The translations under genes and the position numbers were made by a program. Below are positions 32,759 to 55,478 of a DNA stretch of 64,000 nucleotides, one piece after another. The stretch's first letter is position 1, and each line of letters opens with the position of its first letter. Below the pieces are notes generated by a model. That model was not told the origin of the DNA, searched no databases, and saw only the letters and a program-made list of their open reading frames with translations. Source of the DNA: Biomaibacter acetigenes (lineage in GTDB: Bacteria > Bacillota > Thermosediminibacteria > Thermosediminibacterales > Tepidanaerobacteraceae); contig NZ_CP033169.1 in assembly GCF_003691585.1 (NCBI RefSeq), forward strand, positions 3,038,001 to 3,102,000. The letters run 5' to 3'.

Positions 32759-33724
32759 TTAGCTTTGTTCTAAATCCAACAGGGGCTCCACATGCACGAG
32801 AGCTTTAGAATTGATTTTTGATTCAATGACCCTTTCCACCTGTTCCGAAATGTCGTGGGCTTTTATCAGCGATAAGTGGTTTCCCACCTGGATATGCAGG
32901 GAAATCATCTTCCTGTCGCCATAATCGTGCACATGGATTTTATGAATGCCGGTTACACCCGGCACCGAAAGGGCCAATCTTTCAATATCCTCGATTATTT
33001 CCTGATCGGCTGCTTCACCGATAAGTTTTGAAGAAGAATCCCTGGCAATACTAACACCAGTATAGACAATCAGCGCCGAAACTCCCATGCCGAATACAGC
33101 GTCTACCTTATAATATCCATATTGCGAGGCCACGATGGCCGCCGCCACCAGAACCGATGCTATCCCGTCTGTCCTGTGATGCCAGGCGTCCGCTATCAAC
33201 GCTGGCGCGTTTATTCTGGTCCCCAAATCTATGGAAAACTGAGACATCCATTCCTTGAAGATGGCGCCGGCTATCATAACCACGGCCACTGCATAACTGC
33301 CCTTGACCGGCGTGTTTGATATAAGACGGTCATAGGAAGTCTTGCCAAACTCTACACCTACGATTATCAACATTACCGCTATCAGCAGGGTTGCCAGAAA
33401 CTCTATTCTGCCATGGCCGTAAGGATGTTTTTCATCGGCGGGAGAACTGGATAGTTTAAAGCCCAACAGCACCACCACCGATGTCATAACATCGGAGGCC
33501 GTATGTGCCGCATCTGCCAGGAGTGAAATACTGTTGAGCATTAACCCGAATGATACTTTAATCGCCGCCAGTAAAAAGTTGCCTATGATACTGACCCATG
33601 CTTCAAGATAGGCATATTTCCTTCTTGTCTCAGACTCTATAACCTTTTGGGACAGTTGTGTTTCTTTCAAAAAATGGATTATCATATAATCCACGGTTTT
33701 TTGAACTATCTTGTTCATTTTCAT
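32759..33724 (-). CDS. Cation diffusion facilitator exporter 1
   Basis: A 321-residue CDF metal/proton antiporter with six hydrophobic segments. Metal-binding motifs are SLLADAAHTASDVMTS in TM2 (near residue 68) and IADAWHHRTDGIAS in TM5 (near residue 177), giving the DxxxD / HxxxD tetrahedral site of the zinc/iron/cobalt/nickel branch. HPYGHGRIEFLA follows TM2. A C-terminal ferredoxin-like regulatory domain spans about residues 230-315. A riboswitch-like leader with attenuator lies upstream (33788-33868), suggesting metal-induced expression. It is a paralogue of the gene at 33955. Confidence 0.93.
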   Translation of the reverse strand: MKMNKIVQKTVDYMIIHFLKETQLSQKVIESETRRKYAYLEAWVSIIGNFLLAAIKVSFGLMLNSISLLADAAHTASDVMTSVVVLLGFKLSSSPADEKHPYGHGRIEFLATLLIAVMLIIVGVEFGKTSYDRLISNTPVKGSYAVAVVMIAGAIFKEWMSQFSIDLGTRINAPALIADAWHHRTDGIASVLVAAAIVASQYGYYKVDAVFGMGVSALIVYTGVSIARDSSSKLIGEAADQEIIEDIERLALSVPGVTGIHKIHVHDYGDRKMISLHIQVGNHLSLIKAHDISEQVERVIESKINSKALVHVEPLLDLEQS

Positions 33725-33787: not shown

Positions 33788-33817
33788 TAAAAAACTTGCG
33801 GGATGAGTCCCGCAAGT
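33788..33817 (-). terminator. Leader terminator of CDF exporter 1
   Basis: Ten-base perfect stem ACTTGCGGGA / TCCCGCAAGT around 4 bases, followed on the minus strand by TTTTTTATAT. The 5' arm CTTGC can instead pair with GCAAG nine bases upstream, an anti-terminator arrangement. It also separates the two CDF genes. Confidence 0.85.
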
Positions 33818-33868
33818 CCTTCTTGCTGCGCTTTTTGCGCCCGGTTTAATTACCTGTTCTCATTGCAA
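33812..33868 (-). promoter_or_regulatory. Possible NiCo (czcD-type) riboswitch aptamer
   Basis: On the minus strand the leader of CDF exporter 1 contains AACAGGTAATTAAACCGGGC, a GCGC-AAAAA-GCGC hairpin, then GCAAGAAGGACTTGCGGGAC leading into the terminator. Short purine-rich blocks separated by small helices, a competing helix with the terminator arm and a CDF gene downstream match what I recall of NiCo riboswitches, which bind Ni2+ or Co2+ and release termination. The match is from memory and not aligned to a covariance model. Confidence 0.55.
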
Positions 33869-33954
33869 TGAAAATAATAACATGAAATGGTTGTGAAGTC
33901 AAGTAAGATATTGATTCTCAAGTGATAAACAGATTCATACTTACCGGACAAAGT

Positions 33955-34908
33955 TCAATCAACTTTCATTTCCACAGGGTCTACATGAATTAAAACATCG
34001 TTGATCTTTTTATTGTTGTCCAGTATTTTATTTTTTACTTCCACCGCCACGTTATGAGCCTCTTCAAAAGACATGCTTTTATCCACGCCGATTTTCATGT
34101 CAACATATATGAAAGGCCCGCTCTGCCTTGCTTTTATGGTCTTTATCTCACACACCCCCCTGCAGCCTTTCACCATATTGGAAATATTATCTATCAGTAT
34201 CCTGTTGCCAAATCCGTCCATTAACTGGTTTATTCCATCGACGGTAATATCCCACCCCATTTTAATTATAAACACCGTAACGCCTATGCCCGCTATAGGG
34301 TCCAGTATTACAATACCGTGCCTGGCTCCAAATATACCGATAAGGGAGGCTATCGATGAGTACGCGTCGGAACGGTGATGCCATGCATTGGCAATAGTGG
34401 AAGGGCTCTGAATTTTCTTGCCAATCCTGTAAGTGTATTGAAACATACTTTCTTTCACCGTTATGGATAAAATTGCAGCCAGAAGCGGAAGCAGCCCTGG
34501 CTCGGTCACATGGCCCGTCACTATGGATTCTACCGCCGAAAACGCTATATAAAAGCCTGCCAATAATAAGAAAACTCCCACTGTCGCCGTGGCCAGTGAT
34601 TCGGCTTTGCCGTGGCCGTAAGGATGCCCTTCATCAGCGGGCTTTTTAGCAACTTTCAAACTGAATAAAACCACAATTGATGCGATTATATCCGAGGCCG
34701 AATGGGCGGCGTCGGCCACCATAGCCGTGCTATGCCCGACGATGCCGGCCGCCATCTTTGCCGCTGTAAGAAGTATATTTCCAACTATGCCAATCCACGA
34801 AGCTTTTTCACCCTGTTCGAAATACTGGCCATCCTGATGCGTTTCCTGCTCTTGCTGCTGTAAATCACGGCTCTCAAGCATTTTTAACCCTCCATAAAAA
34901 TATAACAT
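33955..34908 (-). CDS. Cation diffusion facilitator exporter 2
   Basis: A 317-residue CDF protein with motifs parallel to exporter 1: AMVADAAHSASDIIASIVVL near residue 63, HPYGHGKAESLA near residue 98 and IANAWHHRSDAYSSIASL near residue 178, where Asn replaces the first Asp of the TM5 motif seen in exporter 1 (IADAWHHR). The N-terminus has a His/Gln-rich stretch (QQQEQETHQDGQYFEQGE) that could bind metal. It starts 9 bases after oppF, so it belongs to the ABC transporter operon, a physical link between uptake and efflux. Confidence 0.92.
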   Translation of the reverse strand: MLYFYGGLKMLESRDLQQQEQETHQDGQYFEQGEKASWIGIVGNILLTAAKMAAGIVGHSTAMVADAAHSASDIIASIVVLFSLKVAKKPADEGHPYGHGKAESLATATVGVFLLLAGFYIAFSAVESIVTGHVTEPGLLPLLAAILSITVKESMFQYTYRIGKKIQSPSTIANAWHHRSDAYSSIASLIGIFGARHGIVILDPIAGIGVTVFIIKMGWDITVDGINQLMDGFGNRILIDNISNMVKGCRGVCEIKTIKARQSGPFIYVDMKIGVDKSMSFEEAHNVAVEVKNKILDNNKKINDVLIHVDPVEMKVD

Positions 34909-41610: not shown

Positions 41611-41625
41611 TGATAACAATTATCA
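41611..41625. promoter_or_regulatory. Fur-like box upstream of the aldolase-ABC-CDF operon
   Basis: TGATAACAATTATCA matches the 7-1-7 Fur family consensus TGATAATNATTATCA at every specified position except one. A second partial copy (TTATCACATATTAATGATTATCA) follows within 30 bases. It lies about 260 bases upstream of the aldolase start. The region is AT-rich, which lowers specificity. Confidence 0.5.
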
Positions 41626-41673
41626 TATATTAGTCGTTATCACATATTAATGATTATCAAAGTCGATAACAAT

Positions 41674-43303: not shown

Positions 43304-44209
43304 TCAATTTAATATTTCAATCCTCGGAGCAAATCCTATCTTCTCCAGCAGGTCCTCATAATCTTTTGGAGTGAGGGATTTATACGGCTTATCGGAAAAG
43401 GACACCAGAACCCCTTCCATAACATTGGTGCCAAAGGACCTACCATCAAGCTCCGGCGTAGTGGTGATGAGCATTCTGGCACCTCTTTGGGAAAGCATCT
43501 TCACATCATCTTTTGTAACGGTATTGGTCAGTATGATTTTCCCCGGGATTTCCGGCGGCATATACCTTCTTATAAAGTGAAAATCTCCGGCGATGATATC
43601 CGCTTCATCATAAAACCTTCGGTGCCTGGTGTCCACCTTTTCCTGTTTTTCCCCGGTGGGATAAAGCATTTTGAAGGGCAGCTTGCATACTATCGGCGCC
43701 GCCAATTTTGCCAGTATGTCGAGGCTTTTCAGAGAATGCAGCGGTAACGGTATCCCCAGCGCAAATATAAGGTCCCCCAGCACCATGTCACACCCGGCTT
43801 TTTCCAGTGATTCGGCCATTCCAAACCTGTCCATGCCCGATACCAGCAGCACTTTTTTGCCCTTGAAGTCCACCTTGTTTTCCCTGACAAGATAATCTAT
43901 CACTTTTCGTTCCAGAGTATTTTTGAGACCGGAACCGTCCACTATGGGAGAAATTTTTGCCGCCCGGGCGATGGGCATTGCATCCCTGATTATGTACCTC
44001 CTGTTGCCCGCACAAAGATAAAGGTCTATCCCGCCCATGCCGAAGGCGCTGACCTTACCATCCATCTCCTTTATGATCTCAATAGCCCTTTTTATATCTC
44101 CATCGGTGCCCCGGCGCTCGATTATAAACTTTTCCCCCAGCAGTTCTATTTCCACTTTATGGTCTCTTTTTGAAGACCCGATGCTCACGCTAAGCACGTG
44201 TTTCATCAA
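43304..44209 (-). CDS. Conserved protein, annotated elsewhere as quinate 5-dehydrogenase-like
   Basis: A 301-residue cytosolic protein with no motif I can assign to a proven reaction. Visible features: SIGSSKRDHKVEIELLGEKF near residue 9, FGMGGIDLYLCAGNRRYIIR near residue 56 and a nucleotide-binding-like GKKVLLVSGMDRFGMAESLE near residue 115. I recall similar proteins carrying the label quinate 5-dehydrogenase, but the evidence for that activity is weak. It overlaps the upstream regulator gene by four bases and precedes the dehydrogenase by 79, so the three are one unit. Confidence 0.6.
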   Translation of the reverse strand: MMKHVLSVSIGSSKRDHKVEIELLGEKFIIERRGTDGDIKRAIEIIKEMDGKVSAFGMGGIDLYLCAGNRRYIIRDAMPIARAAKISPIVDGSGLKNTLERKVIDYLVRENKVDFKGKKVLLVSGMDRFGMAESLEKAGCDMVLGDLIFALGIPLPLHSLKSLDILAKLAAPIVCKLPFKMLYPTGEKQEKVDTRHRRFYDEADIIAGDFHFIRRYMPPEIPGKIILTNTVTKDDVKMLSQRGARMLITTTPELDGRSFGTNVMEGVLVSFSDKPYKSLTPKDYEDLLEKIGFAPRIEILN

Positions 44210-55144: not shown

Positions 55145-55249
55145 CCCCTATACTATTAAAATACAGGACTTGTTTTTTTTTATTTTTTATTATAACACAT
55201 ATCCCCTTAATTGTCCGTGTCAATATGTAGTAGGTAAGTTTTTTAAAAA

Positions 55250-55478
55250 TAGACAGACGCCTCACGGCGTCTGCCCCTCAAGGAACCGGACGTGCGCAAT
55301 TTACGCATCCGGCTCTTCACACAGCCATTTACATCATTGTGGCTGATAATCGTAGATATTAATTCCCTTGCCTACGCTTAGGCCTTAGGTTACCCATCGA
55401 CCCCAAGGCTAGGTAATGGTGGCTGGCTAGGTCTTACCATGCAGATTTCTGCTATATGCTGTGCGCCTCGTGGCGCAC
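55250..55478 (-). mobile_element. Group II intron remnant without maturase
   Basis: On the minus strand the segment begins GTGCGCC, the group II 5' end form, and contains a domain V-like hairpin at 55283-55315: GAGCCGG / CCGGTTC lower stem with the AGC triad, the CG bulge, and TGCG / CGCA upper stem; the apical loop lacks the usual GAAA. Domain VI-like stem CAGACGCC / GGCGTCTG follows (55253-55275) and the element ends near CTAT. Total length is about 229 bases, far below a full domain I-VI ribozyme, and no reverse transcriptase is encoded, so most of domains I-IV has been lost. It lies 31 bases after the oxidoreductase stop. Confidence 0.75.

Follow-up and report, generated by a model that had tools for sequence, protein, structure and literature searches.

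A leader of the NiCo (czcD) riboswitch class with a short P2 ahead of a CDF exporter gene in Biomaibacter acetigenes, and the Fur-like box at its putative promoter

What kind of RNA precedes the cation diffusion facilitator (CDF) gene CDF2 of Biomaibacter acetigenes, and to which metal might it answer? The window, as the whole analysed stretch of 64,000 nucleotides is called here, carries on its minus strand a leader that, by the layout of open reading frames, sits between two CDF genes, CDF1 and CDF2. The sequence-only reading had taken this leader for a riboswitch-like attenuator before a CDF exporter, sensing Ni2+/Co2+ or being a related metal-sensing RNA. The NiCo class has been described, in the available parts of the sources, as binding Ni2+/Co2+ (PMC7266159, with reporter work in PMC7917058); its ligand is nonetheless debated, with Fe(II) being proposed in the portions at hand of PMC7689651, PMC9294342 and PMC11477304. 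The reading preferred here, to which a probability of about 0.92 is given, is that a riboswitch of the NiCo (czcD) class controls transcription termination ahead of the exporter gene CDF2.

The leader, its class and the genes around it

All the leader features named from the sequence were recovered on the minus strand by a motif check of the window, and the leader (101 nt) is as structured as had been supposed, with a fold of -33.2 kcal/mol that none of 200 dinucleotide shuffles equalled (z -6.26).

32759..33724, minus: CDF2, cation diffusion facilitator, the putatively regulated gene (TIGR01297, 229.6 bits, cut-off 82.35)
33955..34908, minus: CDF1, second CDF gene, upstream (TIGR01297, 243.1 bits; ORF layout)
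33857-33850, minus: ACAGGTAA motif (motif check)
33844-33839, minus: CCGGGC motif (motif check)
33840-33828, minus: GCGC hairpin (motif check)
within 33821-33807, minus: AAGGACTTGCGGGAC motif (motif check)

CDF2 carries the PF01545 (Cation_efflux) and PF16916 (ZT_dimer) domains, and its translation probably begins at the second ATG (33718), since AGGGGG stands right next to the first one, a choice that the related locus L006 supports. It falls below the equivalog cut-offs (given in brackets) of DmeF at 44.7 bits (250), FieF at 134.1 (420) and MamM at 166.9 (350), scores from which its metal cannot be read; its best solved relatives are the FieF/YiiP pumps. CDF1 seems to close an ABC-importer operon. 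Elsewhere on the minus strand of the window lie a group II intron domain (55223-55317, 42 bits) and the gene of a 301-residue protein with no Pfam or NCBIfam match (43307-44209).

The Infernal search with the NiCo model that the sequence-only reading had proposed as its check proved positive and above the curated cut-off: in a scan of 261 bases with permissive filters, minus-strand positions 33871-33803 match RF02683 over its full length (model 1-96) at 37.5 bits (E 3.3e-7), 0.5 bit above the gathering score of 37. This marginal excess would favour a different metal- or metabolite-sensing class with a chance likeness to NiCo, which is nevertheless most improbable, since seven related leaders in one scan and three in another reach at least 37 bits with the same model, all of them before CDF genes. 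The leader is thus placed in the NiCo class. When the whole window was scanned against Rfam with default filters, NiCo was not listed and a group II intron was the single listing; a 56-kb filtered scan likewise listed neither the window leader sequence within L005 nor the L006 leader, though the latter is plain by eye and with our own model R1, to whose training set it belongs. Its lack in the long-sequence scans arises because the speed filters lose the leader and not because it is absent; short-P2 members of the class are easily overlooked by filtered Rfam scans. R1 scores the window leader, also one of its training members, at 70.8 bits. Other Rfam names offered at the site, such as BSnc120 and MIR169_2, were rejected as lying far below their cut-offs. 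As judged from its sequence, the feature is a genuine NiCo riboswitch of an ordinary kind whose P2 is short; its parts are as follows.

33803..33871, minus: NiCo riboswitch aptamer (RF02683), short-P2 form (37.5 bits)
33803..33863, minus: P1, 33863-33859 with 33807-33803, plus the pair C33856-G33809 (RF02683 alignment, covariation)
33843..33854, minus: P2, 3 bp (33854-33852/33845-33843) with a hexaloop (RF02683 alignment)
33841..33842, minus: GG at the P2-P3 junction, guanines that may bind metal (RF02683 alignment)
33828..33840, minus: P3, GCGC/GCGC hairpin, 33840-33837/33831-33828 (RF02683 alignment, folding, covariation)
33812..33826, minus: P4, GCAAG/CTTGC, 33826-33822/33816-33812, its 3' strand common with the terminator (RF02683 alignment, covariation)
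33810..33811, minus: GG at the P4-P1 junction, guanines that may bind metal, common with the terminator (RF02683 alignment)

Compared with the Rfam consensus, the aligned leader lacks the distal P2 helix (4 nt vs 21 in the model), and as this helix is also missing in most relatives of its order, it was treated as a variable region; a regular-expression count of short P2 regions was discarded as unreliable, having misparsed L016. The putative metal role of the junction guanines follows the available part of PMC7689651, with 33842-33841 and 33811-33810 being equated, by our reckoning, with G46/G47 and G87/G88 in the numbering of its crystal structure. The related leader L007 (1301-1368) has an A in place of the first P4-P1 junction guanine (GCAGGAC), and its terminator has a matching change; an altered metal response is possible there.

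Relatives, covariation and decayed copies

A first scan of relatives found NiCo in 11 of 15 sources (L002 and L007 being the same place), with seven at 37 bits or more, in orthologous leaders before CDF genes; a second scan found it in 5 of 17 sources, three reaching at least 37 bits, all before CDF genes. The related leaders upstream of CDF genes score as high as 50.4 bits with RF02683. Twelve leaders form alignment A4, from which R1 was built; L017, L031 and L032 were left out and L006 added, A4 being preferred to A3, made with MAFFT, in which L017 and L031 were misplaced. The four helices covary: in A4 standard pairs occupy 89.8% of 216 pair cells, and 7 pairs are changed on both sides vs a shuffled mean of 2.6, a count that 1 of 500 shuffles attained. 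The pairing score collapses once the partners are slid, and P1 is the weakest helix, at 73.6%. The RF02683 match and these covarying homologous leaders before orthologous CDF genes together bear out the proposal of a riboswitch before a CDF exporter and its assignment to NiCo.

The leader is conserved beside CDF genes. Among 30 sources, 19 yielded 20 matches to R1 at E<=0.5, of which 12 are its training sequences; 80 further loci yielded 7, among which L035 repeats L011 and L039 repeats L018. With R1 at E<=0.01, 11 genomes out of the 26 in the taxonomic class have a match, as do, with RF02683 at E<=0.001, 98 of the 398 genomes in a Bacillota sample. The R1 search detected no NiCo leader at the CDF2 orthologs of L008 (66% identical) and L021. 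Several other matches were noted in passing: a strongly diverged NiCo-like leader before a CDF2 relative (L018, 1330-1405, the same record as L039; R1 19.9 bits), a second weak NiCo-like match downstream of a CDF gene (L020, 2860-2923, 20.5 bits) and, in four loci of one genus (L009, L010, L012, L014), a PreQ1-like match downstream of a CDF gene at 29.5 bits, where the cut-off is 39. Two candidates were discarded with cmscan: a weak match in the own genome (L001, 18.5 bits) was unconfirmed at E<=0.5, and L004 is a SAM riboswitch instead of NiCo.

A third CDF gene of the genome, in L183, has a Cdf31-type family as its best NCBIfam match, at 228.9 bits and below the cut-off. Before it stands a decayed NiCo leader (2132-2047, minus, 25.3 bits) in which the P4 pairs are broken and GGGGC replaces GGGAC, the terminator being kept. 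The leaders of its orthologs reach 55.4 bits in the same genus (L123) and 44.4 bits in G005; with R1, the nine orthologs of the family divide into two intact, two weak (G000, and G009 scoring 16.2) and five in which R1 finds no NiCo (G002, G003, G006, G010 and G011), though terminator-like hairpins are seen by eye to be kept. In other genera, then, the decay of this leader has gone further. Five sister-family orthologs likewise gave no R1 match. NiCo aptamers therefore decay in this group, and the copy before CDF2 is intact. A second intact copy in the genome was considered and set aside: the search lists one, a first look having covered 150 of 1490 candidates, and the other copy is the decayed one.

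Such leaders, which stand ahead of another CDF gene in the own genome and in relatives and retain the terminator, are what would speak for the window leader being a constitutive attenuator or a decayed riboswitch without ligand response. We consider this very improbable, as the window copy has all its junction guanines and helices intact and a score near those of its relatives.

The terminator and the direction of the switch

33788..33817, minus: intrinsic terminator ACTTGCGGGA-CTCA-TCCCGCAAGT plus T6 (folding, motif check, hairpin search)

The strong terminator that had been noticed is indeed present at 33817-33794, followed by T6 at 33793-33788, and the upstream GCAAG (33826-33822) does pair with CTTGC (33816-33812), which is also part of the terminator 5' arm. 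A simple terminator scan did not list this minus-strand element, seemingly since its rule for stems takes in the T run; a separate hairpin search found it. The aptamer and the terminator overlap, in that the 3' strand of P4 serves as the terminator 5' arm together with the junction guanines and A33808, with the loop holding most of the P1 3' strand. Computed folds give -15.0 kcal/mol for the aptamer vs -25.2 kcal/mol for the terminator with P2 and P3, and in stepwise folding the four-way junction is the minimum at 70 nt, with the terminator winning from 74-78 nt on. Of the 26 leaders in the first set, 25 show the terminator 5' arm overlapping the P4 3' strand and the core, as do 79 of 98 NiCo loci of the Bacillota sample, from whose 100 loci two were dropped for too little downstream sequence; at the other 19 of the 98, an overlapping terminator was not found with the hairpin rule used.

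This overlap has the predicted layout of a metal-ON switch, and the published mechanism of the class, in the parts available of PMC7689651 and PMC7917058, is one in which metal prevents termination. Under the preferred reading, RNA polymerase would start just before the aptamer, at a start site that we infer; without bound metal the nascent RNA would refold into the terminator and transcription would stop. Metal bound at the four-way junction would presumably hold P1 and P4, so that the terminator 5' arm would become unavailable and the exporter would be made. The switch probably restricts synthesis of a metal-export pump to times of metal-ion excess, and a Fur-like box beside the -35 element probably adds a second, moderately supported layer of control.

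The promoter, the Fur-like box and the metal

33874..33902, minus: promoter-like site TTGACT-17-TATTAT (10/12 matches, TG before the -10)
33906..33920, minus: Fur-like 7-1-7 box, TGAGAATCAATATCT, lying 3 nt ahead of the -35 (feoB-trained matrix)

Position is the main argument for the promoter, because 2 such sites were found vs 2.0 expected in shuffles. The box was scored with a matrix of ten boxes from feoB promoters, none coming from NiCo loci; Fur-type boxes lie upstream of feoB in five genomes of the group. At 14.8 bits it ranks 2 among 63,986 window positions and is below all ten training boxes (15.8-23.1 bits). The genome encodes three Fur-family proteins; when partial stretches of 120 residues were compared, one was best to Fur (159.5, cut-off 220) and one best to PerR. 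The best site of the window, TGATAACAATTATCA (41611-41625, 19.2 bits, rank 1), belongs to a Fur-like box array at 41611-41660, upstream of an apparent operon of a dapA-like gene, a peptide/nickel-type ABC importer and CDF1.

The likely Fur-type box at a NiCo promoter is, as the comparison suggests, the unusual part of the locus. In one paper both "NiCo riboswitch" and "Fur box" occur, without being linked in a single promoter in the two passages concerned. If genuine, such a box at a NiCo exporter promoter would be an independent clue to the disputed ligand, Ni/Co or Fe(II). The promoter evidence leans towards an iron link for the leader, CDF2 would be a metal-export gene under Fur-like and NiCo control, possibly for iron, and the physiological metal of the leader may be Fe(II). 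From this a two-step iron-overload switch can be tentatively proposed for the window, L006, L007 and L013, though we hold it to be less likely than not: a NiCo riboswitch and Fur would act on one exporter promoter, with Fe-Fur sitting on a box near -46 to activate initiation and RNA-bound Fe(II) relieving termination. Were this true, these loci would provide natural evidence of intracellular iron sensing by NiCo riboswitches.

Set against it is a reading to which we give somewhat less than an even chance, that the NiCo-type RNA is strictly for Ni2+/Co2+ and that the box is a chance occurrence or the site of another Fur-family regulator. It draws on the description of the class as binding Ni2+/Co2+, in the parts available of PMC7266159 and PMC7917058, on the 28 of 2000 column-permuted matrices in which the box reaches rank <=2, and on the rarity of such boxes: none of at least 12 bits was seen at 22 of the 26 NiCo leaders, including five of one sister-family genus, or at 97 of 100 Bacillota loci (ten places already in the first set being skipped, and G055 being in both sets). 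Weighing against it are the boxes at the same distance from the -35 in three genera (the window, L006 at 15.0 bits and L007 at 13.8 bits), an additional box in L013, which belongs to a sister family (14.8 bits, 48 nt before the aptamer), and the few shuffles per 1000 that reach the box scores (window 0, L006 2, L007 7, L013 3), along with the likeness of CDF2 to the FieF/YiiP pumps, which contrasts with its poor score of 44.7 bits vs the Co/Ni exporter DmeF. Boxes of at least 12 bits are present at 3 of 100 sampled Bacillota NiCo loci vs 0 of 195 control stretches, and two of these three (L231, L235) stand 5 nt upstream of a -35.

Among known systems, the leader most resembles RF02683 (czcD) itself in its four-helix junction, conserved GG junctions, downstream CDF exporter and terminator over P4/P1, and differs from it in its P2 of 3 bp and low Rfam score; compared with NiCo leaders generally, its Fur-like box is rare (4/26 and 3/100 at 12 bits). 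A parallel might also be struck with Bacillus subtilis pfeT, an efflux gene with a Fur-linked promoter, where Fur is an activator of the Fe(II) efflux pump (PMC9993123, as far as available); that pump, in contrast, is a P1B4-type ATPase also under PerR, and the portion at hand mentions no riboswitch. Escherichia coli mntP differs in its yybP-ykoY-type RNA, its translational and Rho-linked control and its metal, manganese. Yet with its MntR-activated promoter and Mn2+ riboswitch, and with Fur also reported to act on it (PMC11647493, available in part), mntP presents a similar arrangement of a metal exporter that answers to a metalloregulator protein as well as to a metal riboswitch.
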